DNA of 64,000 bases from Syntrophomonas sp. DTU019 (GCA_913757435.1 CAJYDM010000001.1:558001-622000); one strand, 5' to 3'; numbered from the stretch's first letter, positions 7,626 to 41,856 are shown. Notes: generated from the sequence alone by a model not told the origin. Numbers and translations are program-made.

Positions 7626-7648
7626 AAAAGCCCGCGTTGCGGACTTTT
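7626..7648 (-). terminator. Hairpin terminator just before the 89-residue gene
   Basis: AAAAGCCCGC and GCGGACTTTT pair over 10 bp (one G-U) around a 3-nt loop. The U-rich side lies on the minus strand, 20 nt before the Shine-Dalgarno. Confidence 0.65.
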
Positions 7649-7659
7649 AAGAATACTCC

Positions 7660-7835
7660 ATTGCGACCAGGGGTGTCCGTAGATGCGAATATGGCCACCT
7701 TCCACAAATTGGTTTTGCACATTATTTTAAAGATTTGGAACAAAAAAGAACCTCTGCTGTTACACAAAGGTTCTCTTAAAGCATTATGCACATTATCTTT
7801 TGAAAATTTACCGATTAGTTCCGCTCATCGGTTAT
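7660..7835 (-). ncRNA. Leader RNA copy C (GGAAY hairpin - ATGTGCA - terminator)
   Basis: Minus-strand 5' leader. The ACCGAT/ATCGGT stem (7810-7815 with 7827-7832) closes an 11-nt loop containing GGAAC. After 17 nt comes ATGTGCA, and then a terminator (7741-7773). A second ATGTGCA lies near 7717-7723. The order and spacing match copies A (24.1 kb) and B (41.8 kb). The ligand or bound protein is unknown. Confidence 0.6.
7741..7773 (-). terminator. Intrinsic terminator inside leader C
   Basis: GAACCT (7748-7753) pairs with AGGTTC (7768-7773), followed on the minus strand by TTTTTT. It lies between the leader hairpin and the gene. Confidence 0.65.
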
Positions 7836-7917
7836 TTCTAAGTCCGGCGTGTGCCAGAGTAAGTGATTTTGGGGTGCATTTGAGCACTAATATATTCTGC
7901 ATATAGGATACCACTAT

Positions 7918-8520
7918 TTAAAGGTTATCGCAAGCAAAATATTCTCGATTCCCGCCGGGGAGAATGAAGTGAAAACGGTCTGATAGTAAGTTTTCGTCTA
8001 AGGCTATCCTTACCGGTATGGTGATTTTATCAAACTCGGGGTGGTACTGCTCGGATATGATTATCAGCCTTTCATAGTTACAGGCCATGAACGGCAGCAA
8101 TGACACCGGGTCCCCGTGTCTTAACACGATCACCGGATAGGCGTTGGTATTGATGTATATTACTGAATGGATAATTCCCTCGCCGGGTCTTACCTCTAGA
8201 GGGATATTGAACTGTTTGACAAGCTGGGTAACAATAAGCGACTTGAGGATGTCTTTGACGCTGTTATGGTGTTTGGCTGCTGATACGTTGATTTTCTTTT
8301 CACCCTGAAGCTGATATTTGAAGCATAAACCGGCCCGGTGCAGCGCGTCTAATTTCTGCCGGTCGCGGCCTATAGGCGCGATCTGGAAGTAGGCGGCGGC
8401 CCCCACCTGGGATAAGAAAGCTAAAGTTTTTTTGTCCCATGCGGTGAGGTGACCTGGGGGTCTTATGTTGGTGGGATAGGCTTTAAGTTTGTAGTCTTGC
8501 AGTATAGAAAACTGGGACAT
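7918..8520 (-). CDS. Hypothetical protein, 200 residues
   Basis: Not recognised. A helical N-terminal half (TAWDKKTLAFLSQVGAAAYF) resembles a small winged-helix or DNA-binding region and is followed by a beta-rich half. Its ATG overlaps the stop of the upstream S1 protein (TAATG), so it is translationally coupled to that gene and to the unknown gene at 9328. The three may form one unit near the putative replication/partition region. Confidence 0.6.
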   Translation of the reverse strand: MSQFSILQDYKLKAYPTNIRPPGHLTAWDKKTLAFLSQVGAAAYFQIAPIGRDRQKLDALHRAGLCFKYQLQGEKKINVSAAKHHNSVKDILKSLIVTQLVKQFNIPLEVRPGEGIIHSVIYINTNAYPVIVLRHGDPVSLLPFMACNYERLIIISEQYHPEFDKITIPVRIALDENLLSDRFHFILPGGNREYFACDNL

Positions 8521-9341
8521 TACGCACCTTTGCGAACCAGCCTGGTGATGGCTCCAAATATTTTTTGTTCTTCAGGATTAATACTGATGATGGCAATGGC
8601 GACTAAATCGCCCTTGTTTACCCGACCAGACTTCATATGGCGGCAGAGCGCGTTCACACCTGGTTCTAAATCAACGAAGATTCCATAATCGACCATGCCA
8701 GTGACGGTTCCCACATAGACAGAGTTTTTGATGTATCTATCCGCGCATGAGGGCCAGGGGTTTTCATGGAGTTCTTTTAGGGATAAAAAGACTTTTTGTT
8801 TCTCTTGGTCTGTCTCTTGAACATAAGTGTCTATGGTATCGCCGGGTTGAGCGATAGAGCTGATATCTTCCACCCAGCCGTGGGAGAGTTCATTTACGGG
8901 TATGAAGGTTTCGATGCCGTCAAGCTCTACGACGATGCCGATTTCAACCAGATTTCCTTTGTTGTTTCTTCTGCGGATGATTCTTCTGACTATTGCTGAA
9001 CGGGTTTGTCCGGGCTTTAGATTGAGCCAGGTTTTGGCGGCCTGTTTTTCCATTGCAAGGGCGCGGTCGCCTGTGAAAAGATTATTCTCTTTGTCGATCT
9101 GAGTGACGATGAAGGTCACCGGCTGACCCACTAAAGCCATGATTCGGCCTTTAATGGTCCGGTCATCGCCAATCAGGTTGATGCCAGATTGCTCTAATGG
9201 AATGATGCCTTTGGTGCGGTCCTGGGATACTACCAGGCATAGAGAGTCGTTGTGTTCTTCTACTCCGGTTACAGTCCAAGTCAAGGGGTTTCTGGTTTGC
9301 CGAGATGCGTAAACCTCCGGCCAAATTTCAGTTGTTAGCAT
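8520..9341 (-). CDS. S1 RNA-binding repeat protein
   Basis: 273 residues with three S1-like OB modules, at about 20-90, 108-190 and 205-268. The last, VYVGTVTGMVDYGIFVDLEPGVNALC, is a textbook S1 repeat, and the middle one has ETFIPVNELSHGWV. S1 repeats bind single-stranded RNA, as in ribosomal protein S1. On a mobile element this could aid translation or RNA-based control. ATG with AGGAGAAG upstream. It overlaps the upstream gene by 14 nt and the downstream gene by 1 nt. Confidence 0.8.
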   Translation of the reverse strand: MLTTEIWPEVYASRQTRNPLTWTVTGVEEHNDSLCLVVSQDRTKGIIPLEQSGINLIGDDRTIKGRIMALVGQPVTFIVTQIDKENNLFTGDRALAMEKQAAKTWLNLKPGQTRSAIVRRIIRRRNNKGNLVEIGIVVELDGIETFIPVNELSHGWVEDISSIAQPGDTIDTYVQETDQEKQKVFLSLKELHENPWPSCADRYIKNSVYVGTVTGMVDYGIFVDLEPGVNALCRHMKSGRVNKGDLVAIAIISINPEEQKIFGAITRLVRKGA

Positions 9342-10227
9342 TTAACTTCTCCTTTTCGTAGATTTTAATGTCTGAAAGCGCGATGATTTTCGCCTGGGGA
9401 TAGTGCTTAGAAAAAAGTTCTTGTTGTGATTCCAGGCAGATTATAGTCACTGGCTTTTGCTGGCCTAGATAATAGTAAGCATCCAGCGCACTTCTTTTAG
9501 CCAGGTCGTTAAGGATAAGGATAGTGTAGTAACTCGCCACGGTTTCGTAATGGGCGTGGGGGTGGGTTGATATTACTGCACCATTAGGGATGAATGATTT
9601 TACGTATTCTTGTATCAGCGGGCTAAAGAAGTTTACAAACAGGTTAAGCCCCGTTGGGTATGGCAGCAAAAAGAGTTCTTTCTGATGGAATGTCCCTACA
9701 CCGAATGCGGCCATAACCTTCGGGTTGGGAGCGAATATTACTGCATGGGGTGCAATGTTTGAAACCGATAGCAGTTTTAACTCGGCTTGGACTTGGCCGT
9801 AGTAATTGGCTTTCGCGTCCTCACTCATAATGTAGAGAAAATACTGTTTGCCACCAAAAGGAAATGCGCCCTTGAAAAAGGTTTTTCGATTCAGGTTGTA
9901 TAGGGTGCGTAGAGTGCGGTTGCTTATGAACTCTAACTGAGCCGCCAGGACTATTTCAGACAGTTCGATACTTGTTTCCCGCATATCGGGATTTCGGAAG
10001 CGATATTTGTTCTCACCGATGACCTCGGCTGATTTACTGGTTAGTTCCAAGTATGTGCTTTTTTTCGCAAGGTAGCCGTTAGTACGGAGGCGTTGGACTC
10101 GCTTGTAGTGATACCATTTATTGTCAGCGTTGTAGATTTTGCTGGCCTGGGCCACGGTGCAGCAGCCGGTTGTTGCTATGAGTCTAAATAGGTTGATGTC
10201 GCTGTCTGTTAGTTCGATTGCGTTCAC
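9328..10227 (-). CDS. Winged-helix protein, possibly replication or relaxation related
   Basis: About 299 residues. The N-terminus (LTDSDINLFRLIATTGCCTV, then QASKIY and YKRVQRLRTNGYL) is a winged-helix DNA-binding pattern like that of replication-relaxation-type proteins of Gram-positive elements. The rest is unrecognised. The start is ambiguous: GTG at 10227 lies inside the Shine-Dalgarno AAAGGAGGTG, while an in-frame ATC at 10218 sits 6 nt after it. It heads a coupled trio running to 7918. Confidence 0.6.
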   Translation of the reverse strand: MNAIELTDSDINLFRLIATTGCCTVAQASKIYNADNKWYHYKRVQRLRTNGYLAKKSTYLELTSKSAEVIGENKYRFRNPDMRETSIELSEIVLAAQLEFISNRTLRTLYNLNRKTFFKGAFPFGGKQYFLYIMSEDAKANYYGQVQAELKLLSVSNIAPHAVIFAPNPKVMAAFGVGTFHQKELFLLPYPTGLNLFVNFFSPLIQEYVKSFIPNGAVISTHPHAHYETVASYYTILILNDLAKRSALDAYYYLGQQKPVTIICLESQQELFSKHYPQAKIIALSDIKIYEKEKLNANN

Positions 10228-10709
10228 CTCCTTTATTACTGGCGGGGGCTTGCGGAGCGAGGGGTAATATTACTGACCGGGGGTTACCCTTAATGCGTAT
10301 AACATCTTTACTGATAGGGCGACCTTGCTGAGCGACTTCTGCCTAAATATCGCTACTGAAATACTTCTTCTCCCCGTCCGTTTTAATGACAAATGTCCCT
10401 TGTCCTAATTACTGAGGGGGGAGCCGTAGCTTCGCTTACCGTCTGGGCCAAACCAATAAGGCAGGTTTTTGCCCCGTTAGACTACCCACCACTTTTGGAC
10501 AGTTAAATTTCTGCCTTTTTTCCTTCTCTAAAAAGCTGTCCAATCTAAGAACTATCTAGGGGTTTGCCCAGCGTTTATTTGTCCAAAACCTACTAATTTC
10601 GGACTGTCCTAACCTGCAGAAAATAGAAGTGCGTTTTGGACAGCGATTTGGACAAATTTTTAATGGTTTTTGGACAGCCCTGCAAGATAATTATTGTGGT
10701 TTTATACCT
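10228..10709. other. Gene-free region with repeat cluster
   Basis: No gene is seen. The part nearest 10228 has purine-rich GGGGG stretches. The part from 10490 holds the TTTTGGACAR repeats listed separately. Confidence 0.6.
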
Positions 10710-10745
10710 CTATTTTTTTCGGTGTTTCTGTTCTTTTTTGGACAG
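10493..10745. repeat. Iteron-like TTTTGGACAR cluster
   Basis: Copies on the plus strand at 10493-10502, 10634-10643, 10647-10655, 10668-10677 and 10736-10745. Inverted copies at 10536-10543 and 10579-10588. A related GGACTGTCC lies at 10601-10609. The first three begin exactly 43 nt apart, about four helical turns. The last copy lies inside the end of the RusA-like gene. Candidate origin iterons, a centromere, or operators. Confidence 0.7.
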
Positions 10746-11249
10746 AAAAAACAGAGGTTCTTGGGGATGTTCGAGGATATAGATTTCTGTTCTAGGATTC
10801 TCTGTGTCTATTTCCCCGCCGACTACTAGATATGAAATATTGTTATGGGTGTCATTGGGGATGATTTGTTTGTATCGCAGGGAGTCGATGATAAATTTGT
10901 ATGCCCGGTTATCCGTGTCCCAGTATGACGCTGTACTGATTACTTTAATAACACAGAGAACCTTTTCTGCCTTCCAATCAATGTCTTTCAGCGCATGAAA
11001 CATTAGGCTCAACCAATGCTCCCTCAAGGTCGTTTTAGGTATATCAGCTTCTCGGGGAAGAATGTCTCTAATAGTGATCTTGATATATTCGGGGTAAACA
11101 TCGGTTGCAATCAGTTCATCCAGCAATTCATTAGTAACGGATTCGTCTTTATTTATTGGGTGCATTATCATGTCCATCGTCTTCATTCGGGCTATTTCAA
11201 TTAGCCTGTAGGCTTCCACCATGTCTTTTCTATTAACAGCAAGCAGCAT
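10710..11249 (-). CDS. RusA-like Holliday junction resolvase
   Basis: About 179 residues from the ATG at 11249, which has GAGGAGG 6 nt upstream. The segment with DTDNRAYKFIIDSL and then IIPNDTHNNISYL matches the RusA pattern, where acidic residues around D-x-D-N and a later D-D/N-D coordinate metal for four-way junction cleavage. It is longer than typical RusA (about 120 residues) by an N-terminal helical part. It fits the recombination set of RecT and SSB. The assignment rests on this one motif region. Confidence 0.55.
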   Translation of the reverse strand: MLLAVNRKDMVEAYRLIEIARMKTMDMIMHPINKDESVTNELLDELIATDVYPEYIKITIRDILPREADIPKTTLREHWLSLMFHALKDIDWKAEKVLCVIKVISTASYWDTDNRAYKFIIDSLRYKQIIPNDTHNNISYLVVGGEIDTENPRTEIYILEHPQEPLFFLSKKEQKHRKK

Positions 11250-11263
11250 TAGCCCCTCCTCTC

Positions 11264-11518
11264 TCATTTAAGATTCAAAATATCCATCATAAGTTGGTCT
11301 TTCATGCGTTCATGGTCTACGTCTTTATTGGTTGGGGATGGTGTGCCACCTTCCAGGCGGTTCTCGATACGGGCCAGGCTGTCCTCGATCCGTTGTAGGC
11401 GTTCTCCCCAGCTGTACCAGTCGGAGATAATGCGGTGAATAGTGGCGGCCCGCTTTTTTTTATCAAGCTGAGAAATAGGGTGATTGTCAGGAAAAGATAG
11501 GTTTACTCTAACTTTCAT
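11264..11518 (-). CDS. Small ParR-like ribbon-helix-helix protein
   Basis: 84 residues. KVRVNLSFPDNHPISQLDKKKRAATIHRIISDWY fits a ribbon-helix-helix fold, as in ParR adaptors that link centromere DNA to ParM filaments; the tail is coiled coil (RLQRIEDSLARIENRL). It follows the ParM-like gene by about 180 nt, the normal parM-parR order. ATG with AAGGAGC upstream. Two TTTGTGTCGCAGG repeats lie between the two genes. Confidence 0.6.
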   Translation of the reverse strand: MKVRVNLSFPDNHPISQLDKKKRAATIHRIISDWYSWGERLQRIEDSLARIENRLEGGTPSPTNKDVDHERMKDQLMMDILNLK

Positions 11519-11530
11519 AAAAAGCTCCTT

Positions 11531-11640
11531 TTTGTGTCGCAGGAGAAGTCTTGATACTCCAGGCTTCAAGGTGTTTTTACTTTTCGCTTTGTGTCGCAGG
11601 TTGGCAAAAAACCTGTTGTCATTATTTGTAAGACACAAAC
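11531..11640. repeat. TTTGTGTC repeats between parM-like and parR-like genes
   Basis: TTTGTGTCGCAGG occurs at 11531-11543 and again at 11588-11600, 57 nt apart, with an inverted GACACAAAC at about 11632-11640. A possible ParR operator or centromere site. Confidence 0.5.
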
Positions 11641-11697
11641 TTAGTCGCGAATCGCCTTCTGCCTCCGACTAATCCAGGCTTTCCTTGCGACGCTGTA

Positions 11698-12666
11698 TTA
11701 CCCTACAATGTTAATATCCAGCCTCTTGCTCAGATCATAAAAGCCTATGGCATTAGCAAACTGGGCATCTTCAAGAAACACTATGCCGGGGAACTGTTTG
11801 GTTAGAGTCTTTTTTAGTGCGATACTGCCACCGCCAGCCGCAATGATGTGTGTCCTGCGCTCCTTGCTTGGCCCGTTAAGTTTGTAGGCTTCAGCAATAG
11901 AATCTACAGTTTCACGGCTGATGGTTTCGCTGATTTCTTTGTAACCGTTTCCGTTTAAAAATTCTCTCTCCGCGCTTTCTAATGAGACAGCGAACATTTT
12001 ATTGTCCCCCGCCATCTTGGCAGCCAAAGCTCTGAAGGCAGTCACCATACCAGTGTCGGCAGTGAATGAATGTTCTAGCATGAGTTCGTACTTTTCCCCA
12101 GTGTATTCAAATGTAGCCACATCAGTAGTTCGGTAGCCGATATCCATGATGGTAACTAAATCCCCCGCGCTGATATCGCTGCTGGATTTGTAGTTGGGAT
12201 TGAAAAAAACTCCCGCTGCCTGGGGGAAAACAAATGCCTGCTGGACCCTGATGTGTTTTTCTTCGCCGCCAATCTCAACTCTAGCGGAAAACCCAGTGAG
12301 AAACTTTTGAAATTCTTCTTGAGATGTTCTGTAGGAAGATAGGGGAAGCCCCGTCACCAGCATGACTTCGCTTTCTCCGTTTGTGCTTACCGCCAGCGCG
12401 GTGGCGAGCATGGCTTGGAAAGCGGGGTTGTTAAACCTTTCTGCATCGTCAAAGGCTCTAATGGCGAAACGGCTCTCTTTTGCGGCCATATGGCCTATGT
12501 ACCATGTCTTGTCGTTGATAGTTGATACATAATCACCAGCAGCGGATAGAATCTTATCCATGTTGATCTTCTCTCCCGGTTTTGCCAGGGAGGGGAAGCA
12601 GATTCTTTTACTGCCGGTGATTATCTTGGTATTGCCATACCCAACATCAAGTCCGATTTTATGCAA
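11698..12666 (-). CDS. parM: ParM/StbA-like actin-family ATPase
   Basis: 322 residues with the actin/Hsp70 nucleotide-binding pattern: phosphate-1 IGLDVGYGNTKI near the start, phosphate-2 TIMDIGYRTTDVATF near residue 165, and adenosine-motif HIIAAGGGSIAL near residue 272. ParM-type filaments push plasmid copies apart. A TTG start at 12666 has AAAGGAG upstream and overlaps the end of the HD-GYP gene by 46 nt. The small ParR-like gene is next. This supports an extrachromosomal stage for the element. Confidence 0.85.
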   Translation of the reverse strand: MHKIGLDVGYGNTKIITGSKRICFPSLAKPGEKINMDKILSAAGDYVSTINDKTWYIGHMAAKESRFAIRAFDDAERFNNPAFQAMLATALAVSTNGESEVMLVTGLPLSSYRTSQEEFQKFLTGFSARVEIGGEEKHIRVQQAFVFPQAAGVFFNPNYKSSSDISAGDLVTIMDIGYRTTDVATFEYTGEKYELMLEHSFTADTGMVTAFRALAAKMAGDNKMFAVSLESAEREFLNGNGYKEISETISRETVDSIAEAYKLNGPSKERRTHIIAAGGGSIALKKTLTKQFPGIVFLEDAQFANAIGFYDLSKRLDINIVG

Positions 12667-13226
12667 GGTGTATTTCTCCTTTCTGATGTGAACATGAATG
12701 GCTTTAGTGAATTAAATATGTTCTTGTTATAGATAGCCTTGATAATATAGGGGTCGTATTTGGTTTCAGCGCAGCCTATGATTTCCTTGATCGCATCGTC
12801 CACGCTGATCTGTGTTTTATATGCACGGACAGCAGTCATCGCGTCTAATGAGTCGGCAATAGCGATTATCCGCCCGGTGTAGGGGATTTTCTCCCCTTTA
12901 AGGCCATAGGGGTAACCAGTTCCGTCGAAATTTTCATGGTGGGACACAATGCCCTTTTTAATTTTAGAATCACCTTCGTACATCTTTGCTCCCCATACGG
13001 GGTGCATTTTCATTTCCTCCCATTCGGAATCTGTCAATGGATCGGGGCTATTCAAGACATTTGCGGATATTAGTGTTTTCCCTATATCATGTAAGAATGC
13101 TGATATTACTAGATTCCTTAATTCATTGTGTGTTAGGTCGATCTGCTCACCAATTTGTAAACTCAACTCAGCAACTCTACTGGAGTGTAACAATGTTTGC
13201 GGGTCATGTTGGTGCAGCATTTGCAT
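12621..13226 (-). CDS. HD-GYP domain phosphohydrolase (c-di-GMP phosphodiesterase type)
   Basis: About 201 residues, nearly all one HD-GYP domain: HSSRVAELS, FLHDIGK, HHENFDGTGYPYG, GRIIAIADSLDAMTA. These are the metal ligands and the GYP motif of c-di-GMP phosphodiesterases. No sensor domain is attached. ATG at 13226 is 17 nt from GGAGGGAG, whereas an in-frame ATC at 13238 is at normal distance, so the product may be four residues longer. It could antagonise the GGDEF protein encoded at 39-41 kb. Confidence 0.88.
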   Translation of the reverse strand: MQMLHQHDPQTLLHSSRVAELSLQIGEQIDLTHNELRNLVISAFLHDIGKTLISANVLNSPDPLTDSEWEEMKMHPVWGAKMYEGDSKIKKGIVSHHENFDGTGYPYGLKGEKIPYTGRIIAIADSLDAMTAVRAYKTQISVDDAIKEIIGCAETKYDPYIIKAIYNKNIFNSLKPFMFTSERRNTPCIKSDLMLGMAIPR

Positions 13227-13274
13227 ATACCGGTAGATAATACTCCCTCCTTGCTTTTGTAGAATAGCACCACC

Positions 13275-13303
13275 TAAAAAAAAGAGGGCGTATGCCCCTC
13301 TTT
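13275..13303 (-). terminator. Intrinsic terminator after the 676-residue secreted protein gene
   Basis: AAAGAGGG(C) and GCCCCTCTTT pair, with eight U residues following on the minus strand. Confidence 0.85.
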
Positions 13304-13314
13304 GGAAAATCTGA

Positions 13315-15342
13315 TTAGTTTTCTCTGCCCCTTAAAACTACCGACCAGTTTTCATACATTGACTCGCCGACCCTTACTATTCCTTCAGCCCATTTTCGGT
13401 ATCCCTCCCACTGCCACCACTTGGCGGGCATCTCAGATACAGGAGTATCGTTGAGATACATCAGGTTGGGAATCCCGTCACCGGTGAAATATCCGTTTAC
13501 GATAGTCCCTTCAGGGCATATATCGGGATTCGCTTCAGTATAGAAACTGGCCTCCCACCTGTAGTTACTTCCCTTAGTTTCAATTTTCTTCGGCGGCTCC
13601 ACAATAGTTGATTGTTCAGCAAGATACGGGAATGTAAACCCTGCTGTGCTCACTCCGACACTGTATGCCCTAACCTTCACCAATCCCCCCGCCTTTGTAC
13701 CGGGCAAGAGGTCTTTGGTGCAGTCCTTAGGGGTGAATCCAGATGAAGGCGGAGCAATAACTTCCACATAAGGCCGGTCGAAGGCTATCACGCAGAATTG
13801 TTTCGTACTCGGGTCTGAAGCAACTCCTGCTTCGTCTTTAGTCACAACTTCTGCAGTGAATACATTTGTCCCGGATTCATAAAGTTTCCCGGTATTGCCG
13901 GAATCAACAATATACTCATTGGCAGAGCCGGGGATGTATCCTGAGTCTTCGATTACTACTCCGTTGGCACGGACTATTACCTGGAATCCTCCTTGAGAGT
14001 CTCCCGTATCAGTGTCATTGAATGTCCACCGGATTACGGGAGTAGAATCCAGATAACAGCGGTCAGACCCGGTTGTGGGCGGAGCATCAATCGTGGGTGG
14101 GTTCGGTTTACTGTTTGTCTGTAAGACAATGGTGGGGTAAATAATTGGGGTGTTGTCCCTTTCGGTTGTTTTGAGGACTGCTTTCCACCTTAGTTTTTTG
14201 CCGGGGACAACCTCAGTCCATTTACCCAGCTCGGCCGGCTGCCAGTCGTTCTCCCCGTCCTTGGCGGTAACAAACCAATCTACACTAGTTCCAGCTTGCT
14301 GTGTGTGGCCGATAGGATCGTCAATATAAAGTTTGATATGTGATATATCCTGTACGGAAGAATAGATTTTTGATTCGGCTGCCGCACTAGGTATGTAACT
14401 GCCTAAGTCCTGCAAGCCTGTTATAGTCTTTGACATTGTAGGATTTAATACTAACCCTGTCCCATCCCACATATAATAATTGACAATATTGCCATCGACC
14501 ACAAGGCGGTCATAACTGCCCGGACGAAGCGCAACACAAGTTGGCATAGTAAGACCTGTCGTTATGGACAAAAAAGAGTTCTCCATAAGCGTGTCGTTAA
14601 GTAGATTGTAGTGTTTGACTTGTTTATCAGTTACTATAGCCAGATTCCCTCCATCGGCTGCCGATATACTGAAAGCATTGGTGAGTCCGGTCATCGAATG
14701 AGAAAGGGAGCCGTTCTTGAAGTATTTCACTTCTTCACCGTCTATTACGGCCATGCCGTAATGATCTTTAAACAGTGACATGGCAATAGGGCTGGTTAAG
14801 CCTCCTACGCTGAATGCCTCTGCCATTTCGCTGCCAGTAAAAGCCATGTAGCTTGCTGTGTCGGTTAATACTGCATGATCTAATTCGTTTGTGCTCACGC
14901 TCAGGATTTCCGTGTAGCCCTGCGAAGAAAGGACGGGGTTAACAACATACCCGCTCCCTGTAAAAGAATAACGGGTTACATTACTGCCATGCGCTATCAT
15001 AAAATCGGGGCAATTTGAAGTCCCGGCTATGGCTGATACCGGATTGTCTAACACACTCGCCGCAACTACGGTATCCATACTGCCGTCAGTATTGACTCTT
15101 TTTACGCCTTCTGGAGTCAAGACGATGTATTCAAGGCTATCGCCTAGAAAATCAACCATGTTGGGCATATATTTCGGCAAGTGGATCTCATGTTTTATAA
15201 TATCCACTACTGCAGTGGTCTTGCCCTGGTTGATTCCATCCAACGTATCAATATCGTAACGGTATTCCTCTGCTATGGCTATATTTACTCCTACTATCAT
15301 CGTTGTGATCAAGGCCAAGAGAAACATCAAAATTCGTTTGAT
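13315..15342 (-). CDS. Large secreted protein: propeller-like N-terminus and Ig/FnIII-like C-terminus
   Basis: About 675 residues with a signal peptide (KRILMFLLALITTMIVGVNIAIA). Residues 30-330 contain repeated short beta units of propeller type (AVLTDTASYMAF, LAIVTDKQVKHYN). From about 420 there are Ig/fibronectin-like units (NPPTIDAPPTTG, PVIRWTFNDTDTG). The C-terminal part has several cysteines. It may be a pilus-associated or surface adhesin. Start: GGGGGTG is followed by 5 nt and an in-frame ATC (15342), giving a proper positively charged signal peptide. TTG at 15330 is the nearest canonical codon. Confidence 0.65.
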   Translation of the reverse strand: MKRILMFLLALITTMIVGVNIAIAEEYRYDIDTLDGINQGKTTAVVDIIKHEIHLPKYMPNMVDFLGDSLEYIVLTPEGVKRVNTDGSMDTVVAASVLDNPVSAIAGTSNCPDFMIAHGSNVTRYSFTGSGYVVNPVLSSQGYTEILSVSTNELDHAVLTDTASYMAFTGSEMAEAFSVGGLTSPIAMSLFKDHYGMAVIDGEEVKYFKNGSLSHSMTGLTNAFSISAADGGNLAIVTDKQVKHYNLLNDTLMENSFLSITTGLTMPTCVALRPGSYDRLVVDGNIVNYYMWDGTGLVLNPTMSKTITGLQDLGSYIPSAAAESKIYSSVQDISHIKLYIDDPIGHTQQAGTSVDWFVTAKDGENDWQPAELGKWTEVVPGKKLRWKAVLKTTERDNTPIIYPTIVLQTNSKPNPPTIDAPPTTGSDRCYLDSTPVIRWTFNDTDTGDSQGGFQVIVRANGVVIEDSGYIPGSANEYIVDSGNTGKLYESGTNVFTAEVVTKDEAGVASDPSTKQFCVIAFDRPYVEVIAPPSSGFTPKDCTKDLLPGTKAGGLVKVRAYSVGVSTAGFTFPYLAEQSTIVEPPKKIETKGSNYRWEASFYTEANPDICPEGTIVNGYFTGDGIPNLMYLNDTPVSEMPAKWWQWEGYRKWAEGIVRVGESMYENWSVVLRGREN

Positions 15343-23995: not shown

Positions 23996-24026
23996 AAAAG
24001 AGAAAACCCGGACTTTTTGGTCCGGG
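23996..24026 (-). terminator. Intrinsic terminator in leader A
   Basis: CCCGGAC (24007-24013) pairs with GTCCGGG (24020-24026), 7 bp with a T-rich 6-nt loop, followed by TTTTCTCTTTT on the minus strand. It sits 7 nt before the Shine-Dalgarno of the peptidase gene. Confidence 0.85.
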
Positions 24027-24110
24027 CTGAGTGGGGTTGTATTGGGGGTTTAAGTGATTCTGCACATTATTTAATCCGGGTTTAACCGCCGTGTTCCCTG
24101 CGGTTTGTTC
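24005..24110 (-). ncRNA. Leader RNA copy A upstream of the Tad locus I operon
   Basis: Minus-strand 5' leader. Stem AACCGC/GCGGTT (24084-24089 with 24100-24105) around a loop containing GGAAC, 18 nt, then ATGTGCA and the terminator above. AACCCGGA in the spacer (24075-24082) is perfectly complementary to TCCGGGTT of the terminator's 3' arm (24005-24012). The hairpin starts about 10-15 nt after the predicted transcription start. Confidence 0.65.
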
Positions 24111-24118: not shown

Positions 24119-24146
24119 ATTATAACACTTTTCTCATGGTTTTTAA
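24119..24146 (-). promoter_or_regulatory. Promoter for leader A
   Basis: Minus-strand -10 TATAAT (24119-24124) with a weak -35 TTAAAA (24141-24146), 16-nt spacing. Confidence 0.55.
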
Positions 24147-34625: not shown

Positions 34626-34654
34626 ATAATCCCACCTTTATAAAAATGGTCATT

Positions 34655-34727: not shown

Positions 34728-34805
34728 CTCCCCACGGCTTGGGCGGGGAATAGGGTTTATTAGTTTGCGAAGAACACCCGTGACTTCAGTCGTGAGTAGT
34801 TCACA
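34728..34805. mobile_element. Possible IS200/IS605-type end remnant
   Basis: TCCCCACGGCTTGGGCGGGGA followed 35 nt later by GACTTCAGTCGTGAGTAGTTCAC, like the palindromic ends next to tnpB-type elements. No transposase or tnpB is present. A similar palindrome lies on the far side of the toxin-antitoxin pair at 35698-35735. Confidence 0.35.
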
Positions 34806-34822
34806 GAGACTTAGGAAGGTTT

Positions 34823-35191
34823 TTATTCCGGTGGGTGAAGCCGCAGAATTGCCTTTTTATAAACTTGCATATTATCCCTCGGACCGATTGCTATAATATC
34901 CATCTGGATTATCCCGGTTGTTAACTTAACCGGTTTATATATAATCCGCAGATTAAGGTTTTTACTTTTTATTTTGGCGTAATCATGTAGCTGGCCTTCG
35001 CACCGATTGGCATTACCATCTGGTTTGAATAATGCTCCTTTTTCGGCTTGCTTAATAATTAACTTCAGAATATCCTGTCTTTTGCCAGACGTAAATGACT
35101 TGTAATCCTGAACGGCACTTGGGGAGAACATAACCTGGGTTCGGTATTGATCCAGCAGAAACTTGTTAAGCTGTTCAATTTTATCTGCCAT
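34823..35191 (-). CDS. RelE-family toxin
   Basis: 122 residues. FSPSAVQDYKSFTSGKRQDIL, then NLNLRIIYKPV and MDIIAIGPRD, the RelE/ParE fold pattern of ribosome-dependent mRNA-cleaving toxins. It follows the Phd/YefM-like antitoxin by 2 nt. A stability module. Confidence 0.78.
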   Translation of the reverse strand: MADKIEQLNKFLLDQYRTQVMFSPSAVQDYKSFTSGKRQDILKLIIKQAEKGALFKPDGNANRCEGQLHDYAKIKSKNLNLRIIYKPVKLTTGIIQMDIIAIGPRDNMQVYKKAILRLHPPE

Positions 35192-35193
35192 TA

Positions 35194-35586
35194 TTAATCC
35201 TCGTCTAGTTTGGTGTTGGGCAGAGATTTCACCAAATCATCAAAGTCAAAATCGCTATTATCAAGCACCTTGCTCAGTGGTATATCTGCTTTTTCGTTGA
35301 TTCTTTCTATGGCAATTTCGTACATAATTTCGTCAGTTGATCGCTCTACGGCTTCTTGGATTTTTAGAAGACGCTCATAATGTTCTAAATCAACAAGAAC
35401 CCCAATAGCGTTACGATTTTTATGGTTTTGAATCACATAGATTTCCGGGGTTTCTTCCCCTGCATACTGGTTTAATATTTCAGATAGTTTATTTGTTCTG
35501 GTTAATTCTGTAACGCTTAAAACATTCTCTTTCAAGAATCTAAAGGTGCTGGATGTAGGCTTTTTGTTCACTCTAATCGCGCTCAC
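35194..35586 (-). CDS. Phd/YefM-like antitoxin
   Basis: 130 residues. ENVLSVTELTRTNKLSEILNQ and IYVIQNHKNRNAIGVLVDLEHYERLL match the Phd/YefM DNA-binding antitoxin fold. The acidic C-terminus would neutralise the RelE-type toxin. A GTG start with GGGAAGG upstream; a strong promoter precedes it. Confidence 0.82.
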   Translation of the reverse strand: MSAIRVNKKPTSSTFRFLKENVLSVTELTRTNKLSEILNQYAGEETPEIYVIQNHKNRNAIGVLVDLEHYERLLKIQEAVERSTDEIMYEIAIERINEKADIPLSKVLDNSDFDFDDLVKSLPNTKLDED

Positions 35587-35612
35587 TTTCTAACCTTCCC
35601 TTCAGTTATTAT

Positions 35613-35641
35613 ATGATAATGTGCGCTGTTTTATGTGTCAA
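35613..35641 (-). promoter_or_regulatory. Promoter of the Phd/RelE module
   Basis: -35 TTGACA (35636-35641) and -10 TATCAT (35613-35618) with 17-nt spacing on the minus strand. Confidence 0.75.
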
Positions 35642-35697
35642 TTATAACACATATGGTGCCTACAAAAAAATACCTATTTGCCAACTATCAGTGAAGG

Positions 35698-35735
35698 AGA
35701 CTAAAATTCCCCGGCTTGGGGCGGGGATTTTAGTC
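35698..35735. terminator. Long bidirectional hairpin
   Basis: AGACTAAAAT(T)CCCCG pairs with CGGGGATTTTAGTCT, about 15 bp with one bulge. It begins within the stop codon of the 476-residue secreted protein gene. A/T flanks on both sides allow termination in either direction, but it also resembles an IS605-type palindrome. Confidence 0.7.
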
Positions 35736-37160
35736 TCGTAGGTCTACTCTTGTTTCTCTGTCGGGGTTTAGTTTCTCTGCGGGATAGTCTTTCTCTTGGT
35801 ATATCGTAACAGTGGTTTCGCCGTAGTTATTAGACGGGTTTATATCTATCCCGTTAAGTAGATTTACTTGTCCGGTGAATTTATATGTCCCAGGGCCTAG
35901 ACTGTATTTACTGTCGTAAAACTGGAAGCTCTTTTCGCCTTGTTCGTTTCTATATAGGGTAGTATGTTCGGTTTTGCTGCCACCTGGATAAGTGAGGACG
36001 GTTTCAACTTCTGCCAACGGGGAAAAGTCATGTTTTTGCACCGTGGCGGTGATGGTGAAGTTAGTTTTCTGCCCCGGTTTGACTGTCTTGCTGAAATCGA
36101 GGGGCATTCTTATACCTACATCTATCCCGTCTGGAATAATGCCTATCGCCATGAGGTTGTTGTCCTGGTTTATCTCTGTGGCAGGGGTAAGTCCGTCTAT
36201 ATTGGCCTTGAAGAATAATCTCCTGGGGTGTTCGGGTACGGTTACGGTTACATCAAATGTCTTTGATTCGCCTTTGGCTAGTTCGATCGGTTCAGTCTGC
36301 CAAGGGGAATTAGTTCCCTTCCAGCCTGTAACAGGGTCTTGCCCATCGCGTTCCCAAACTGCTTTAAAGTCGGTTATTGCTTTTGCGCCGCAGTTATATA
36401 AAGTAACCGGGAATGTAATCGGTTCGCCTTCCTTGCCTTCGTAAATCTTAGCAAGGTTTTTGTATTCTTCTTTGTATTCGTTAGAGCCTTCAGGGGTGGG
36501 GTAGAAATCGGGGGCTTCCCCTCCTACTTCAACCACCGCTTCGGTAAAATACCAAAAAACACCTTTAGGGAAGTTTTTATTGTTGTAGCTGATACTCCTC
36601 ACGTTGCCGTTGGTTGACCAGTTTGTAGCACCTTCTATGCAGGGCGCGTTATCAGCTACGCAGAGGAATATCTCGTATGTGCCTTCTTTTTCAAGGTTCA
36701 GATTTTCGATAATGTTCTTTACTTTCCCAAAGTCTCCTACGATGGCAGATTTGATCTCGTGCTTATGCCTGTCTTCTCCCTGAGGTGTAAAACGGTACTG
36801 AATGTCGTAATAAATTAAACTACTGCCGCTGCCTGGGCTGCTCAGGTCGCTGATAAGTATTTTATCCCCGATCGATGCATTGATCACCGGGGAATCTTGT
36901 TCGGGGACAATGCGGCTCTGATCGTTGCCTATCTCGGCTGAGTCAAGAACAGTTGGTAGCAGGGTTTCCCCTGATTTAATCTGCAACGAAAAACCTGCTG
37001 ATGGGTGTACCAGGTTGGGGTCAGTGCTAATTTGGGCCTTGCGATAGTCAACCACCCCAGGATAATTACTAACTTCATCATTGCCGATACCATCAGCATA
37101 AGCGGGTACGGCAGAAAAAAGAAACACTAGCATTAAAGCTAGTGAAAGTATTTTTTTCAT
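35730..37160 (-). CDS. Secreted protein with CARDB-like repeats
   Basis: 476 residues with a signal peptide (MKKILSLALMLVFLFSAVPAYA). From about residue 245 two Ig-like CARDB-type units appear (ITFPVTLYNCGAKAITDFKAVWERDG, TNFTITATVQKHDFSPLAEVETVL, ending with DINPSNNYGETTVTI). Such units occur in cell-surface adhesins. Next to a copper-amine-oxidase-N protein. ATG with GGAGGT upstream. Confidence 0.65.
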   Translation of the reverse strand: MKKILSLALMLVFLFSAVPAYADGIGNDEVSNYPGVVDYRKAQISTDPNLVHPSAGFSLQIKSGETLLPTVLDSAEIGNDQSRIVPEQDSPVINASIGDKILISDLSSPGSGSSLIYYDIQYRFTPQGEDRHKHEIKSAIVGDFGKVKNIIENLNLEKEGTYEIFLCVADNAPCIEGATNWSTNGNVRSISYNNKNFPKGVFWYFTEAVVEVGGEAPDFYPTPEGSNEYKEEYKNLAKIYEGKEGEPITFPVTLYNCGAKAITDFKAVWERDGQDPVTGWKGTNSPWQTEPIELAKGESKTFDVTVTVPEHPRRLFFKANIDGLTPATEINQDNNLMAIGIIPDGIDVGIRMPLDFSKTVKPGQKTNFTITATVQKHDFSPLAEVETVLTYPGGSKTEHTTLYRNEQGEKSFQFYDSKYSLGPGTYKFTGQVNLLNGIDINPSNNYGETTVTIYQEKDYPAEKLNPDRETRVDLRD

Positions 37161-37169
37161 GGCTACCTC

Positions 37170-37988
37170 CTATGGTAAGGTCTTGGTGACGGTCACTAAG
37201 AGAGTTTCCTGGCCGCTCACTTTACCGTAAACATCGAAAGTCACTACGTCTCCGGATTTGGGTTCGGGGGTATATCCCTCATGGAATAACATATAACTCT
37301 TGGTCCAAACGTCTACGGGTTGTACCATGTGAGTTCCATCCCACATTAACCTATTGTTTTTATTCCATTCGGGGTGGCTGGTGCAGACTACACGGATTTC
37401 TTTTTGGGGAAAGCTCGCATCACTCATACCAAACCACATAGTAGGGTCATCGTAGTTATTGCTTATCCGAAGATCATAATCGCCAACCTTAATAAAATCC
37501 CTTCTTGCCGGGTCATTAGATTTCTCTAAAACAACAGTTTTTGCTGCGCCATTGGTTGCACCAGTAGTCGAGATCAACACTGTATAAGTATTCGGATCCC
37601 AGTCTACTCTTGCGCCAATGGCTTCTGCCGCAAACCGGATGGGGATGCAAGTTCTGTCTCCGGTGATGATCGCCTGGGTGTCCATAGTCTTGTTTACGCC
37701 GTTTACAGTGTAGGTTTTACTGCCGATAGTGAATACTGCAATGGTTCCGTCTTTCTCGAAGATAGCCTGTCTGGTGTTATCGTTCCAGTCTACGGTTGCT
37801 CCCATGGCTTCCATAGGTGCGCGCATGGGTACTAAGGTACGGTTGTTGCTGTCGATGTAGGCTCCCTGGTCGGGGAATGATAATACAGCCCCATCAATCT
37901 TCACAGTTACATCGGGAGCTGCCCCTGCGGGCAATACCATCGCCATCAATAAAATTGCCATCAGTGCTATTAGTTTTATTTTCTTCAT
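37170..37988 (-). CDS. Secreted protein with copper-amine-oxidase-N (PF07833) domain
   Basis: 272 residues with a signal peptide. Two copies of the beta-repeat with TLVPMRAPMEAMGATVDWND and CIPIRFAAEAIGARVDWD, the hallmark of PF07833, common in surface proteins of anaerobic Firmicutes. The C-terminal 110 residues are unrecognised. Probably cell-wall associated. ATG with AAGGAGG upstream. Confidence 0.85.
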   Translation of the reverse strand: MKKIKLIALMAILLMAMVLPAGAAPDVTVKIDGAVLSFPDQGAYIDSNNRTLVPMRAPMEAMGATVDWNDNTRQAIFEKDGTIAVFTIGSKTYTVNGVNKTMDTQAIITGDRTCIPIRFAAEAIGARVDWDPNTYTVLISTTGATNGAAKTVVLEKSNDPARRDFIKVGDYDLRISNNYDDPTMWFGMSDASFPQKEIRVVCTSHPEWNKNNRLMWDGTHMVQPVDVWTKSYMLFHEGYTPEPKSGDVVTFDVYGKVSGQETLLVTVTKTLP

Positions 37989-38013
37989 GAAAAATTCCTC
38001 CTTGTAGTATTAA

Positions 38014-38040
38014 AAGAAAAACCCTCCAGCGAGGGGGGTT
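38014..38040 (-). terminator. Terminator after the coiled-coil gene
   Basis: CCCTC/GAGGG stem in AACCCCCCTCGCTGGAGGG with TTTTTCTTTT on the minus strand. A second hairpin (CCACAAG/CCTGTGG) lies at 38052-38069. Confidence 0.75.
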
Positions 38041-38072
38041 AAAGTTTGCTCCCACAAGACTTCCTGTGGCTT

Positions 38073-38678
38073 TTATTTAACCTTGCGTTTATTGCTTTTG
38101 GTTCGATCTAATACTTCGATTTGTATGTCGTGGGATTCGATCTTTTCTTCGATTCGCTCCAGGCGTTTAGTATGACCGTCAATCTTGTTGGCAACCGTAT
38201 TCATGGTGCTGGCTAGAAATTTTATGCTTTCATCGGTAGAAGCCTGCCGGTTAGTTAGCTCTATTACGTTTTCTGACAAAATGCGAATTGGAGCAAAAGC
38301 TTCGTTTTCTAATCTAAGCTCTAGGTTTTTTTGCCCATCTTTTACTGAAATGATATCTGATTGTGCCGATATCATGTCAGTACGCATCGCACCTATGTCT
38401 GATTGTACCGAGGTTATATCAGAACGCATCGCACCTATGTCTGATTGTACCGATATCATGTCAGAACGCATCGTGCCTATGTCTGATTGTACCGATATCA
38501 TGTCAGAACGCATCGTGCCTATGTCTGATTGTACCGAAGTTATGTCAGTACGCATCGTGCCTATGTCTGATTGTATTGAAGTTATGTCAGTACGCATCGT
38601 GCCTAGGTCTGATTGTATTCCGGTTATGTTGGATTGCATCATTTCAAGCATCTGCAATATTTTGGTTTCGTTGTCCAT
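38073..38678 (-). CDS. Coiled-coil protein with tandem 14-residue repeats
   Basis: 201 residues. Residues 14-112 are about seven copies of a 14-residue unit with consensus (S/T)xQSDIGxMRxDI, two heptads each, forming a long parallel coiled coil. The C-terminal part is also helical (IDGHTKRLERIEEKIESHDIQ) and ends strongly basic (KSNKRKVK). The DNA repeats are 42 nt and nearly identical, so copy number could vary. ATG with AGGAGG upstream. Role unknown. Confidence 0.7.
   Translation of the reverse strand: MDNETKILQMLEMMQSNITGIQSDLGTMRTDITSIQSDIGTMRTDITSVQSDIGTMRSDMISVQSDIGTMRSDMISVQSDIGAMRSDITSVQSDIGAMRTDMISAQSDIISVKDGQKNLELRLENEAFAPIRILSENVIELTNRQASTDESIKFLASTMNTVANKIDGHTKRLERIEEKIESHDIQIEVLDRTKSNKRKVK
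38370..38640. repeat. 42-nt tandem repeats coding for heptads
   Basis: About six and a half direct copies of a 42-nt unit containing CGCATCG and TATGTCTGATTGTA. In frame with the coiled-coil gene. Confidence 0.85.
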
Positions 38679-38726
38679 GTTAATACCTCCTGATAAAGGC
38701 TGTGTGAGATAATTTTACCATATTCT

Positions 38727-39056
38727 TTAACTAACGGGCTTAGCTTCTCTCTGCGCCGTGATGGCTAACTCTCCCCAAGTTAAATTAGGATTGTTCCGCA
38801 GGGATTCCTGGAAATACTGTTCCCGTTCGAGGGTTCCCAACAAATCAGTCTTTCCTACATAGGTGGTCATGTAGGCATGAAATACCCGAAGCGCGTTCCC
38901 ATGATCTGCTACTCTATCCGTCCCCGGAGGCCACTGGCGTTGAGGCTGGCTTACTTCCGGTGATTCAACGGCGACTATTCTAATGGGCAGCTTGGTATAC
39001 AGATAACCTATGCCTAAGCATATCGCGACAATAATTAACTGAATGTTTACATCCAC
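38727..39056 (-). CDS. Small membrane-anchored protein
   Basis: About 109 residues from the GTG at 39056 (GGAGGAAC upstream). One N-terminal helix (IQLIIVAICLGIGYLYTKLPI), then a soluble helical part with ALRVFHAYMTTYVGKTDLLG. Overlaps no conserved domain I know. The gene overlaps or abuts the end of the GGDEF fusion gene and is likely in its operon. Confidence 0.5.
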   Translation of the reverse strand: MDVNIQLIIVAICLGIGYLYTKLPIRIVAVESPEVSQPQRQWPPGTDRVADHGNALRVFHAYMTTYVGKTDLLGTLEREQYFQESLRNNPNLTWGELAITAQREAKPVS

Positions 39057-39078
39057 GATTGTTCCTCCTTTCTTGTTT

Positions 39079-41403
39079 CTAACCGAACCTCTGCGATGCT
39101 TCGCTGGTTCGGCCAATAATGTATCCGTTGTTTGCTTTTTTTAATGCTGGACCCTCCGAAGGGTTTACTACTGCCACATTGGGGCCGCCGTAGGTCTTTA
39201 ACCACTGTTGGGTGAGTTGGTCGGAAGCATCCCCTTCGCGGGCTAAGACTAATATGCCTTCATCTCTGGCTACCCGAGAACACATATCTAAACTCGAGGC
39301 ACAGTCGATGATAACCAATGAAAAACGACTCTTGATTTGATCTGCAAGGTTTTTGGCATCAGATAATGTGTTGACATACTTATAGGGGTCAATAGGCCAC
39401 ACCATAACCCCGTTGTGTTCTATGGGAGCCTGACCTCCTGGAAATCTCCAATCTGAAACCACTAACTTTTCAGGAGGGATTCCTAACGATACTGCCGCCA
39501 TGCTCTCCGGAGAGGCGCATACCAGCGCGGTGTTGTCTTCACATAATGCTGCGGCTATCTCTCCTGCAAGGGCAGGCCGCGACGGAGAAACGACATACAA
39601 AGCTCCGTGAATCGGTATGGTCATGCCGTGGTCGTTGCCTCTCGCGCCGGGAAGAACAGCGAGCTTGGGCTTTACAATCAGATTAACCGCTTCAGTAATA
39701 TTCTCACAGAATACTGCATCGGGTCTGATTTTCTTTGCCACCCAGTCATCTGCCGCCCCGGACGGGATCACATACAAAGGAAGGCCGGGGGCGAATTTGA
39801 CATTATTAGGGGAACTTATCGCCGCGATTGCCTCATTGGGATCGCTCGTTGCCTGCATCCTGTTGTCGTTTAACATAAAGTCGCCCAAAAGTAGAACTTT
39901 CGGCCCGGTGCTGGCGCATACCCTATTCCGGCCTTCGCTCTTAGCTTCGTAAAGCCTTTTATCGGCTTCAGCTAGCACGTTCCGGCTCTGGGGCCATTCG
40001 GCTATGCCAGCGGAATAGGTACAGGAAATTATACTGCCGTCTTCTAGTGTGATTTTTCTTGAACTCCAGTTTTTGCGGAGGCGGTCGATGACGATATAGC
40101 CCTCTTGAATCGTAGTGTCCGGCAGGCAAATAACAAATTCTTCACCGCCATACCTACACGCAATATCGCCAAAACGGAGGTTTTGCTTTAAAAAGCCCCC
40201 TAGTAAAGACAAGACCATATCTCCCGCCTGGTGTCCGTAGGTGTCGTTTACGGCCTTAAATTTATCAATGTCCAATATTACTGCCGAGTAGGGGTTTTCC
40301 CTCTCCCTCATCCATGCGGTTAAAAAATCTCTAGTGTATAACCCGGTCAGGGGGTCGGTTTCAACTTTAGACCAGAGGTGTTTCATTCTTTCTGAAAGAC
40401 TAACAGCTTCGGATATTACCTGGGAGTTTATTTTTTTCACACACCGGTCGGCTCCAGCCTTCAGGTGTTCAGTTCTCCCTCCCAGTACAAACATCGGAAC
40501 AAGAGGATACTCTCTCCGGAAGTCCTTTATAAATTTTGTCCCCCAGGAAGCTGAGATAATAATGCCGTCGGCATCCGCCGCGCCATCTTTGATCCTGTCT
40601 TTTGAAAGTTTGATGAATTCCCCATCGCGCATCTGCCCGGACTTCCCAAAGAGGTTCTTCCCGCCTGCGCCAAACAATGCTTTTCTCCCTTTTTTAAGCT
40701 GGGGGAGCTGCGGCAATTTGACTTGAAGTTTAATTTTATCTTCTATTTTGATCCCATCAAACATTAAACTAAGGATTTCTGCCATGTATGAACTATCAGG
40801 AGTCTTTGGGATTTTCTTTTCCGCGTCAGGGAAGTATGGCAAAGTAAAAACGTTTTTTGTTTGCTCCGATAATTCCCGTGCAATCTGGGACTCGGTGTAG
40901 TAGCTCTTCTTTTCGCGTGAGTTTACAACCAAAGTCCAGTCTTTGTTAGTTGGCCGGGAGTTCAGGAATTCTCTCAGCCTTACCAAGGCTTTCTCATCGC
41001 AATCGGATACTAATAAAGTAAGGTCGGCTTGGTTGATGATGGTTTCCCAGTGTTGTTGCTTATGATCAGTCCCTAAGTCAGCCACAACTAAATCGAAATC
41101 TGTTGCTGAAGAAAGTAAATCGGCTGCGTCTATGGTTTCGTGCAGCATATTAGGTTTGGGCAGTATGTATGTTCCTGCGGCGGACTTGACACAATCTTGC
41201 CATTGAAAGTCTTTATATGTTCCCAATGTGGGGTAGATATGCTGCGGGGAAACCCCGAAGACTCTTAGAGAATCTCCTACGGGGTTGTCAAAGTCAACAA
41301 AAAGAGTTTTTAGATTCTGCTGGGTGGCGGCTTCTGCAATTCCTACGGCTATGAATGTCTTGCCTGCGTCAGTCGCAGGTGATGTTATCGCTATGAGTTT
41401 CAA
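39079..41403 (-). CDS. ParA-like / GGDEF fusion protein
   Basis: 774 residues. Residues 1-230: a MinD/ParA-like domain with P-loop SPATDAGKTFIAVG and LFVDFDNPVG. 270-345: a receiver-like piece. 350-510: GGDEF domain with TDPLTGLYTRDFL and RYGGEEF; RFGD five residues before it matches the RxxD inhibitory site, so a c-di-GMP-regulated diguanylate cyclase is likely active. 515-774: a DWVAKKIRPDAVF module shared with the TadZ-like protein at 24-25 kb plus a ParA-like region lacking a P-loop. TTG start with GGAGGGGA upstream. Confidence 0.8.
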   Translation of the reverse strand: MKLIAITSPATDAGKTFIAVGIAEAATQQNLKTLFVDFDNPVGDSLRVFGVSPQHIYPTLGTYKDFQWQDCVKSAAGTYILPKPNMLHETIDAADLLSSATDFDLVVADLGTDHKQQHWETIINQADLTLLVSDCDEKALVRLREFLNSRPTNKDWTLVVNSREKKSYYTESQIARELSEQTKNVFTLPYFPDAEKKIPKTPDSSYMAEILSLMFDGIKIEDKIKLQVKLPQLPQLKKGRKALFGAGGKNLFGKSGQMRDGEFIKLSKDRIKDGAADADGIIISASWGTKFIKDFRREYPLVPMFVLGGRTEHLKAGADRCVKKINSQVISEAVSLSERMKHLWSKVETDPLTGLYTRDFLTAWMRERENPYSAVILDIDKFKAVNDTYGHQAGDMVLSLLGGFLKQNLRFGDIACRYGGEEFVICLPDTTIQEGYIVIDRLRKNWSSRKITLEDGSIISCTYSAGIAEWPQSRNVLAEADKRLYEAKSEGRNRVCASTGPKVLLLGDFMLNDNRMQATSDPNEAIAAISSPNNVKFAPGLPLYVIPSGAADDWVAKKIRPDAVFCENITEAVNLIVKPKLAVLPGARGNDHGMTIPIHGALYVVSPSRPALAGEIAAALCEDNTALVCASPESMAAVSLGIPPEKLVVSDWRFPGGQAPIEHNGVMVWPIDPYKYVNTLSDAKNLADQIKSRFSLVIIDCASSLDMCSRVARDEGILVLAREGDASDQLTQQWLKTYGGPNVAVVNPSEGPALKKANNGYIIGRTSEASQRFG

Positions 41404-41692
41404 AATCTCCCCTCCTATGTGGGTGGACGCGCGTCCGGTATTTTGGCTTGATGATTTTTGCTTTTTTCTCGTATTTGCACAACCAACAGTTACATGACAG
41501 GTTGTATTTTGAGAGTTGCCCGACAGGAAGGGGCGGAGCGGTTTTCCAAATCTCCGTGATAATCCGACCGCGCCTCTTAATATAGCGTTGTCTTTGGTGT
41601 CTGTTTTCTGTAAGGGTTTTGTGATGTCTGCGCTGTTCGCAGATCGGGCAGGTATTATTCCAAGTCTCGGAAAAACACAAAATACACTGCAT
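41369..41692 (-). CDS. Cysteine-rich zinc-ribbon-like protein
   Basis: 107 residues. MQCILCFSETWNNTCPICEQ at the start and a later CNCWLC give three CxxC-type pairs, suggesting zinc binding. The rest is basic. ATG with AAAGGAGGAATTGT upstream. It overlaps the start of the GGDEF fusion gene by 35 nt and is the first gene after leader RNA B. Possibly a nucleic-acid-binding regulator. Confidence 0.55.
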   Translation of the reverse strand: MQCILCFSETWNNTCPICEQRRHHKTLTENRHQRQRYIKRRGRIITEIWKTAPPLPVGQLSKYNLSCNCWLCKYEKKAKIIKPKYRTRVHPHRRGDFETHSDNITCD

Positions 41693-41713
41693 ACAATTCC
41701 TCCTTTAAAGACT

Positions 41714-41740
41714 TTAAGGCCCAGACTTTCGTCTGGGCCT
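41714..41740 (-). terminator. Terminator in leader B
   Basis: AGGCCCAGAC (41717-41726) and GTCTGGGCCT (41731-41740), a perfect 10-bp stem with TTTC loop. The U-tract is weak (TTAAAGTCTTT). Confidence 0.75.
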
Positions 41741-41820
41741 AGAATGTTGCTATATTGGGCTTTTGGGGGTTTTGCACATCTTTTTATTGGGGCTTAACCG
41801 CTGTATTCCTCGGCGATTTC
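41714..41820 (-). ncRNA. Leader RNA copy B upstream of the zinc-ribbon/GGDEF operon
   Basis: Minus-strand leader: AATCGC/GCGGTT stem (41813-41818 with 41796-41801, one G-U where copy A has C-G), 11-nt loop with GGAAT, 18 nt, ATGTGCA, then the terminator. Spacer TTAAGCCCCA (41788-41797) is complementary at 9 of 10 positions to the terminator 3' side TGGGCCTTAA (41714-41723). Confidence 0.65.
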
Positions 41821-41828
41821 TTAATATT

Positions 41829-41856
41829 AATATACCACCTTTAAATAGAAATGCAA
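41829..41856 (-). promoter_or_regulatory. Promoter for leader B
   Basis: -35 TTGCAT (41851-41856) and -10 TATATT (41829-41834), 16-nt spacing, minus strand. Confidence 0.55.

Follow-up and report, generated by a model that had tools for sequence, protein, structure and literature searches.

Terminator read-through has been described on Gram-positive conjugative elements, namely for conAn of pLS20 (PMC8955417) and canT of Tn916 (PMC11658703). Both are single longer RNAs that start one operon, canT being 452 bp long (PMC11658703), and conAn also has a protein (PMC8955417). The NusG paralog LoaP is associated with a small leader hairpin upstream of a terminator, the dfn hairpin, which is of the UNCG type (PMC12691694). 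In lambda-type nut sites a linear box and a usually hairpin-borne box (boxA/boxB) stand upstream of terminators at the operon heads of one mobile element. Here we analysed a 64,000-nt stretch of the Syntrophomonas sp. DTU019 genome (GCA_913757435.1; 3.2 Mb in 17 contigs), namely positions 558001-622000 of contig CAJYDM010000001.1 (C1), hereafter called the window; coordinates without a prefix are window positions. Two short boxes found there form a putative cis-acting site, present at the operon heads of a single large integrative Tad/type IV secretion system (T4SS) element. A preliminary description of this DNA had reported a common leader before several operons; this holds and is widened here to five operon heads marked across ~ 110 kb, which precede dnaE (copy E), an ssb/recT cluster (A), Tad locus I (B), a zinc-ribbon/GGDEF operon that includes Tad locus II (C) and an XRE gene with virD4 behind it (D).

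As in the nut sites, a linear box and a usually hairpin-borne box stand upstream of terminators at the operon heads of one mobile element, but here the order is reversed with the hairpin first, a boxA-like sequence is absent, the spacing is fixed at ~ 30 nt, the hairpin is missing in one copy and no N-like protein was identified. Unlike the single conAn and canT RNAs, the boxes described here cover ~ 45 nt and recur at five operon heads, the distinction being drawn from the published descriptions, with the leaders unmatched in Rfam. The dfn hairpin of LoaP is likewise a small leader hairpin upstream of a terminator, whereas the loops found here (GAGCGGAACTA, AGGGAACACG and CGAGGAATACA) are not of the UNCG type. 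A LoaP-like NusG paralog was considered and rejected: the genome holds one match to PF02357, which lies outside the element, and no NusG-like frame was seen in the element. Hence the layout differs from those of conAn (PMC8955417), canT (PMC11658703), LoaP (PMC12691694) and the nut sites, although the kind of device, if confirmed, would be a known one.

The conserved core of the shared leaders is a linear two-box sequence, of which the hairpin is not the main conserved part. Box 1 reads GGAAY-N4-CGGTWA and box 2 reads ATGTGCANAAY. Within the window, pattern and model matches give box 1 and sequence searches give box 2 at the following positions:

7808-7822, minus strand: leader A, box 1, GGAACTAATCGGTAA
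7783-7793, minus strand: leader A, box 2, first copy, ATGTGCATAAT
7712-7722, minus strand: leader A, box 2, second copy (A2), without a box 1, ATGTGCAAAAC
24083-24097, minus strand: leader B, box 1, GGAACACGGCGGTTA
24057-24067, minus strand: leader B, box 2, ATGTGCAGAAT
41795-41809, minus strand: leader C, box 1, GGAATACAGCGGTTA
41769-41779, minus strand: leader C, box 2, ATGTGCAAAAC

A fourth full two-box copy, D, lies at C1:655313-655272 (GGAACCTGGCGGTAAC-AATACGAAAAAAA-ATGTGCAAAACCC), and box 2 stands without box 1 in E (C1:546916) as it does in A2. The distance from GGAA to ATG is constant in the four two-box copies (29, 30, 30 and 29 nt), which is about three DNA helical turns. In leaders A, B and C the gap between the hairpin 3' arm and ATGTGCA is 16 nt each time, and not 17 or 18 nt as first given. 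The leaders are dissimilar outside the boxes, so only the boxes have been kept.

The pattern GGAAYNNNNCGGTNAAN{5,20}ATGTGCA has exactly three matches genome-wide, which are A, B and C. A slightly looser two-box pattern gave four matches in the same genome, none in 397 other genomes and none for the reversed control. On a weight-matrix scan of 137 kb the four two-box copies scored 40-47 bits with the next candidate at 24, and the six box-2 copies, all on the minus strand, scored 20-23.6 bits with the next at 15.7. With a sequence model, A to D scored 35-37 bits and the next match in the own genome 13.7 bits. By itself, ATGTGCA shows no enrichment in the window (5 observed for 7.8 expected), whereas the extended boxes are enriched: ATGTGCANAAY occurs in the element six times on the minus strand and never on the plus strand, for a mean of 0.58 and a maximum of 3 in 60 shuffles. 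In all six copies box 2 has the orientation of the downstream gene. A search with the surroundings of box 2 returned 39 matches for 2 with the reversed control; one repeat (AAAATGTGCAGAGC) accounts for five of these, and most others are isolated and coding-like in appearance. Five of the six exact matches to these surroundings lie near the window, D, A2 and E among them.

The minus-strand hairpins reported earlier around box 1 were found again by sequence and folding, each with GGAA(C/T) in its loop:

7832-7810, minus strand: leader A hairpin, ACCGAT-GAGCGGAACTA-ATCGGT
24105-24084, minus strand: leader B hairpin, AACCGC-AGGGAACACG-GCGGTT
41818-41796, minus strand: leader C hairpin, AATCGC-CGAGGAATACA-GCGGTT

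In these three leaders a 6-bp stem brackets GGAAY in the loop. The hairpin regions are no more stable than their shuffles (z of -1.56, -0.40 and +0.40) and changes in the stem pairs are few and mostly one-sided. Indeed, the C-G to U-G change that had been placed between A and B is found between B (AACCGC) and C (AATCGC) and is one-sided, the sole other covariation being that of the inner pairs between A and B/C; this comparison rests on four paralogous copies, one of which, D, breaks the stem. In D the ACCG 5' arm is absent, and GGAAC begins 5 nt past the stop codon of the upstream helix-turn-helix (HTH) gene and is preceded by an unrelated 8-bp stem. Hence, the hairpin is not a constant part of the motif. 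It may nevertheless have a role, given that 6-bp stems in all three of A, B and C are unlikely to arise by chance.

The promoters and terminators of leaders A, B and C in the window are the following:

24119-24146, minus strand: leader B promoter, TTAAAA-16-TATAAT with an extended -10 (10 of 12 consensus matches)
41829-41856, minus strand: leader C candidate promoter, TTGCAT-16-TATATT (by eye; not listed by the consensus scan)
7741-7776, minus strand: leader A terminator 1, 12-bp stem and T6 (fold)
7625-7650, minus strand: leader A terminator 2, AAAGTCCGCAACGCGGGCTTTTG, immediately ahead of the Shine-Dalgarno sequence (fold)
23996-24028, minus strand: leader B terminator, intrinsic, preceding the Tad locus I operon
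41715-41740, minus strand: leader C terminator-like hairpin, strong stem with a poor U tract (fold)

Promoters immediately precede the boxes in B and E, and one was seen by eye in the same place in C, which indicates that the boxes are transcribed. The best promoter of leader A, also chosen by eye (TTGCGA-17-TATCCT, 7933-7905), sets the hairpin ~ 70 nt from the 5' end, whereas it had been placed near that end. That ATGTGCA is followed by a terminator before the coding region stands for all three leaders, but with two corrections, as the 10-bp stem of C is strong while its U tract is poor (GCCTTAAAGTCTTT), and leader A has a second box 2 and a second terminator. Tandem terminators are present in E as well, placed after the candidate promoter and ahead of dnaE; the gene on the upstream side of E is divergent. 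For D, the terminator (CAGGACGCGCGTCCTGTTTTTTT) is found past the small XRE gene, immediately ahead of virD4. Taken together, a terminator-like hairpin is found between box 2 and the main genes in 5/5 operon heads. Processive antitermination predicts a recruitment element in the leader upstream of terminators, a position that the boxes occupy and in which they may recruit a factor; an excess of intrinsic terminators inside operons, which it also predicts, was not observed. Box 2 is separated from the first terminator by 2 nt in E, 12 in A, ~ 32 in B and C, and ~ 370 nt in D, and the distance from the boxes to the start codon varies from 30 to 190 nt.

The motif was then searched for in viral contigs, GTDB r220 contigs, 54 family genomes, 397 other phylum genomes and three related plasmids, the phylum genomes being searched both by pattern and by sequence model with the reversed pattern as control. 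It was absent from the viral contigs searched. The GTDB contigs gave only four matches, in unrelated phyla and consistent with chance, the family genomes gave three extra pattern matches, all chance, and the 397 phylum genomes gave no relatives by either method. Most of the extra matches inspected fall within open reading frames or are AT-rich, isolated occurrences of ATGTGCA. Furthermore, orthologs of the HTH protein in two other genomes have no adjoining box, and the genes of a related peptidase/MinD pair in one further genome are not separated by a leader. The related plasmids, Brevibacillus pAZOBL1, a B. marinus plasmid and Thermoanaerobacterium pMU3262, are syntenic with the element (VirB4, M23, CpaB, TadA, ParM, S1 and SSB) and are without the two-box motif; one ATGTGCA before an XRE gene of pAZOBL1 (L097:39223) was set aside as probably due to chance. 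Comparison with the Rfam 15 covariance models at the gathering score left the leaders unmatched, in agreement with the earlier remark that they match none of c-di-GMP-I/II, T-box and preQ1. Since neither patterns nor models found homologs outside the element, the proposal of a new class goes further than the evidence.

The sole Rfam match in the window is a group II intron RNA (D1-D4-5; 1341-1504, minus strand). The surroundings, ~ 122 kb at about C1:540.5-663 kb, are an integrated Tad/T4SS conjugative element with genes for VirD4 (CD1115 family), a VirB4/TcpF-like ATPase, an EF1877-like membrane protein, an M23/SLT hydrolase, two Tad gene sets, ParM, SSB, RecT, a DNA polymerase III alpha subunit, an S1-domain protein and recombinases. 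An ispE-like gene at 538.5 kb and veg-like and rsmA-like genes at 666-667 kb flank it. In B. subtilis the gene order is rsmA-yabG-veg-sspF-ispE, which together with these flanking genes suggests that the element is inserted between veg and ispE. The element encodes a DNA polymerase III alpha subunit of its own and, by sequence, a ribonucleotide reductase-like protein (C1:543823-546798 and 548621-550681), unusual genes for an integrated conjugative element. The S1-related protein (8520-9341) has full-length relatives of 33-35% identity in Brevibacillus plasmids and is unusual conjugative-element cargo. A three-gene module encoding a coiled-coil, a copper amine oxidase N-terminal-like and a surface protein is present twice (35730-38678 and C1:648091-650817). 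Inside the ssb/recT cluster two small overlapping genes (6118-6745) are MazF-type toxin/antitoxin-like by eye, and a secreted protein of 2010 amino acids with repeated EEPVVEEP is encoded on the plus strand at 55890-61922, with the transfer genes to one side and a region rich in insertion sequences to the other.

What the boxes do was weighed among several readings. The one that we favour, tentatively and as possible rather than probable, is that they form a nut-like recruitment site in the nascent RNA, through which a factor lets RNA polymerase pass the leader terminators. RNA polymerase would leave the promoter and transcribe the boxes; a trans factor, probably one of the element's own, would bind them, and the modified polymerase would read through the terminators into dnaE, the ssb/recT cluster, Tad I, the zinc-ribbon/GGDEF/Tad II genes and virD4. 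When the factor is absent, most transcripts would end in the leader. The shared orientation of box and gene in six of six copies, the position behind promoters and the terminators downstream favour RNA as the acting form. The motif, its confinement to the element, its strand and position and the terminators behind it are shown, whereas its action as RNA, the binding of a factor and the control of termination are inferred. Candidates for the factor are the HTH protein at C1:655318-656112 and two proteins of the window:

8520-9341, minus strand: S1-domain RNA-binding protein encoded by the element, putative trans factor
41369-41692, minus strand: small basic zinc-ribbon-like protein, first gene after leader C

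Several observations weigh against this reading. No trans factor was identified, the single NusG of the genome (its one PF02357 match) being located outside the element; D lacks both an immediately following terminator and a visible promoter; the U tract of the C terminator is poor; and a fixed spacing of about three helical turns would suit a DNA-binding protein equally well. Moreover, terminators between co-oriented genes number 10/98 in the element and 16/167 in host DNA, so internal terminators are not enriched and their counts do not support processivity over whole operons. Operons studded with terminators seemed at first a convincing sign of processive antitermination, but failed this host control. 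A more specific version, in which a compact nut-like signal not described so far would co-activate at least five operons across 110 kb via a factor other than a NusG paralog, appears rather doubtful.

The main rival, which we consider unlikely though worth retaining, places the site in the DNA, as a bipartite directional site for a DNA-binding protein of the element such as the above HTH protein next to copy D or the XRE protein behind it. Such a protein could repress or activate from just downstream of the promoters, or act on the early elongation complex in a Q-like or AlpA-like manner. The constant spacing and the loss of the hairpin in D favour DNA, the conservation is linear, and copy D is flanked by two HTH genes. 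However, no dyad symmetry exists within or between the boxes, all six sites point the same way with respect to the gene (a chance of ~ 0.03 if orientation were free), E and A2 consist of box 2 only, no promoter adjoins D, and wherever promoters are visible the sites lie downstream of them. A site for post-transcriptional control, at which an RNA-binding protein (the S1 protein, or host CsrA via the loop GGA) or a small RNA would control translation or mRNA stability with incidental terminators, is a good deal less likely. The S1-domain protein is conserved in related plasmids and the D site abuts the Shine-Dalgarno sequence, but box 2 has no CsrA feature, the distance to the start codon is variable and the plus strand of the element shows no conspicuous antisense copy of box 2. 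CsrA itself was rejected as the partner: the host has csrA, but GGA occupies the hairpin loop only in A, B and C and not in D.

A classical cis attenuator or riboswitch, in which a ligand or a ribosome on a leader peptide would set alternative hairpins, would fit the layout of promoter, leader and terminator, and the B tail AAACCCGGA can pair with the terminator arm. Compared with shuffles, however, only B shows a slight excess of pairing of the leader with the terminator 3' arm (0.018), A, C and E being at shuffle level (0.70, 0.51 and 0.71). This lack of consistent antiterminator pairing argues against an attenuator or riboswitch, as do the missing Rfam match and hairpins that are weak and, in D, absent. 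Box 2 contains ATG TGC and GTG CAA AAC, but ATGTGCA was discarded as a conserved leader-peptide start, the short frames differing in length and sequence and having no consistent Shine-Dalgarno sequence. The folded-RNA attenuator first proposed is accordingly not supported and now seems most improbable. Indeed, the shuffle-level pairing and a distance from box to terminator of 2 to ~ 370 nt argue against a switch between mutually exclusive hairpins and favour a site able to act at a distance, and the anatomy suits a factor-recruitment site better than an attenuator. Hardly more probable is that these are ordinary junctions, where the upstream operons stop at the terminators and the boxes persist as functionless leftovers of duplicated promoter regions or mobile sequence. 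Terminators are common in host gaps of 101-300 nt between co-oriented genes too (8/34) and A, B, C and D may be paralogous, but only the boxes are kept in otherwise dissimilar leaders and in B and E the promoter lies upstream of the terminators.

In the plasmid family, the B. marinus plasmid carries the gene for a divergent NusG-family protein (L099:26644-27480; NZ_CP034542.1 96644-97480) beside that for a sigma-like HTH protein. The PF02357 Pfam model does detect this NusG-family protein, for which the Syntrophomonas element has no gene. It is plausible that this protein is a plasmid-specific antitermination factor, and because the plasmid encodes it, there may be a precedent for antitermination in this family by different means.

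The distribution of the boxes suggests that the element switches five gene clusters on together. Should they recruit an antitermination factor, they would be a short, portable read-through signal that co-expresses replication, pilus and transfer genes, a third design beside the longer conAn and canT RNAs, and would explain the silence of the element in the chromosome despite its internal promoters. If they are instead a DNA operator, the boxes would still define the master regulon of the element.

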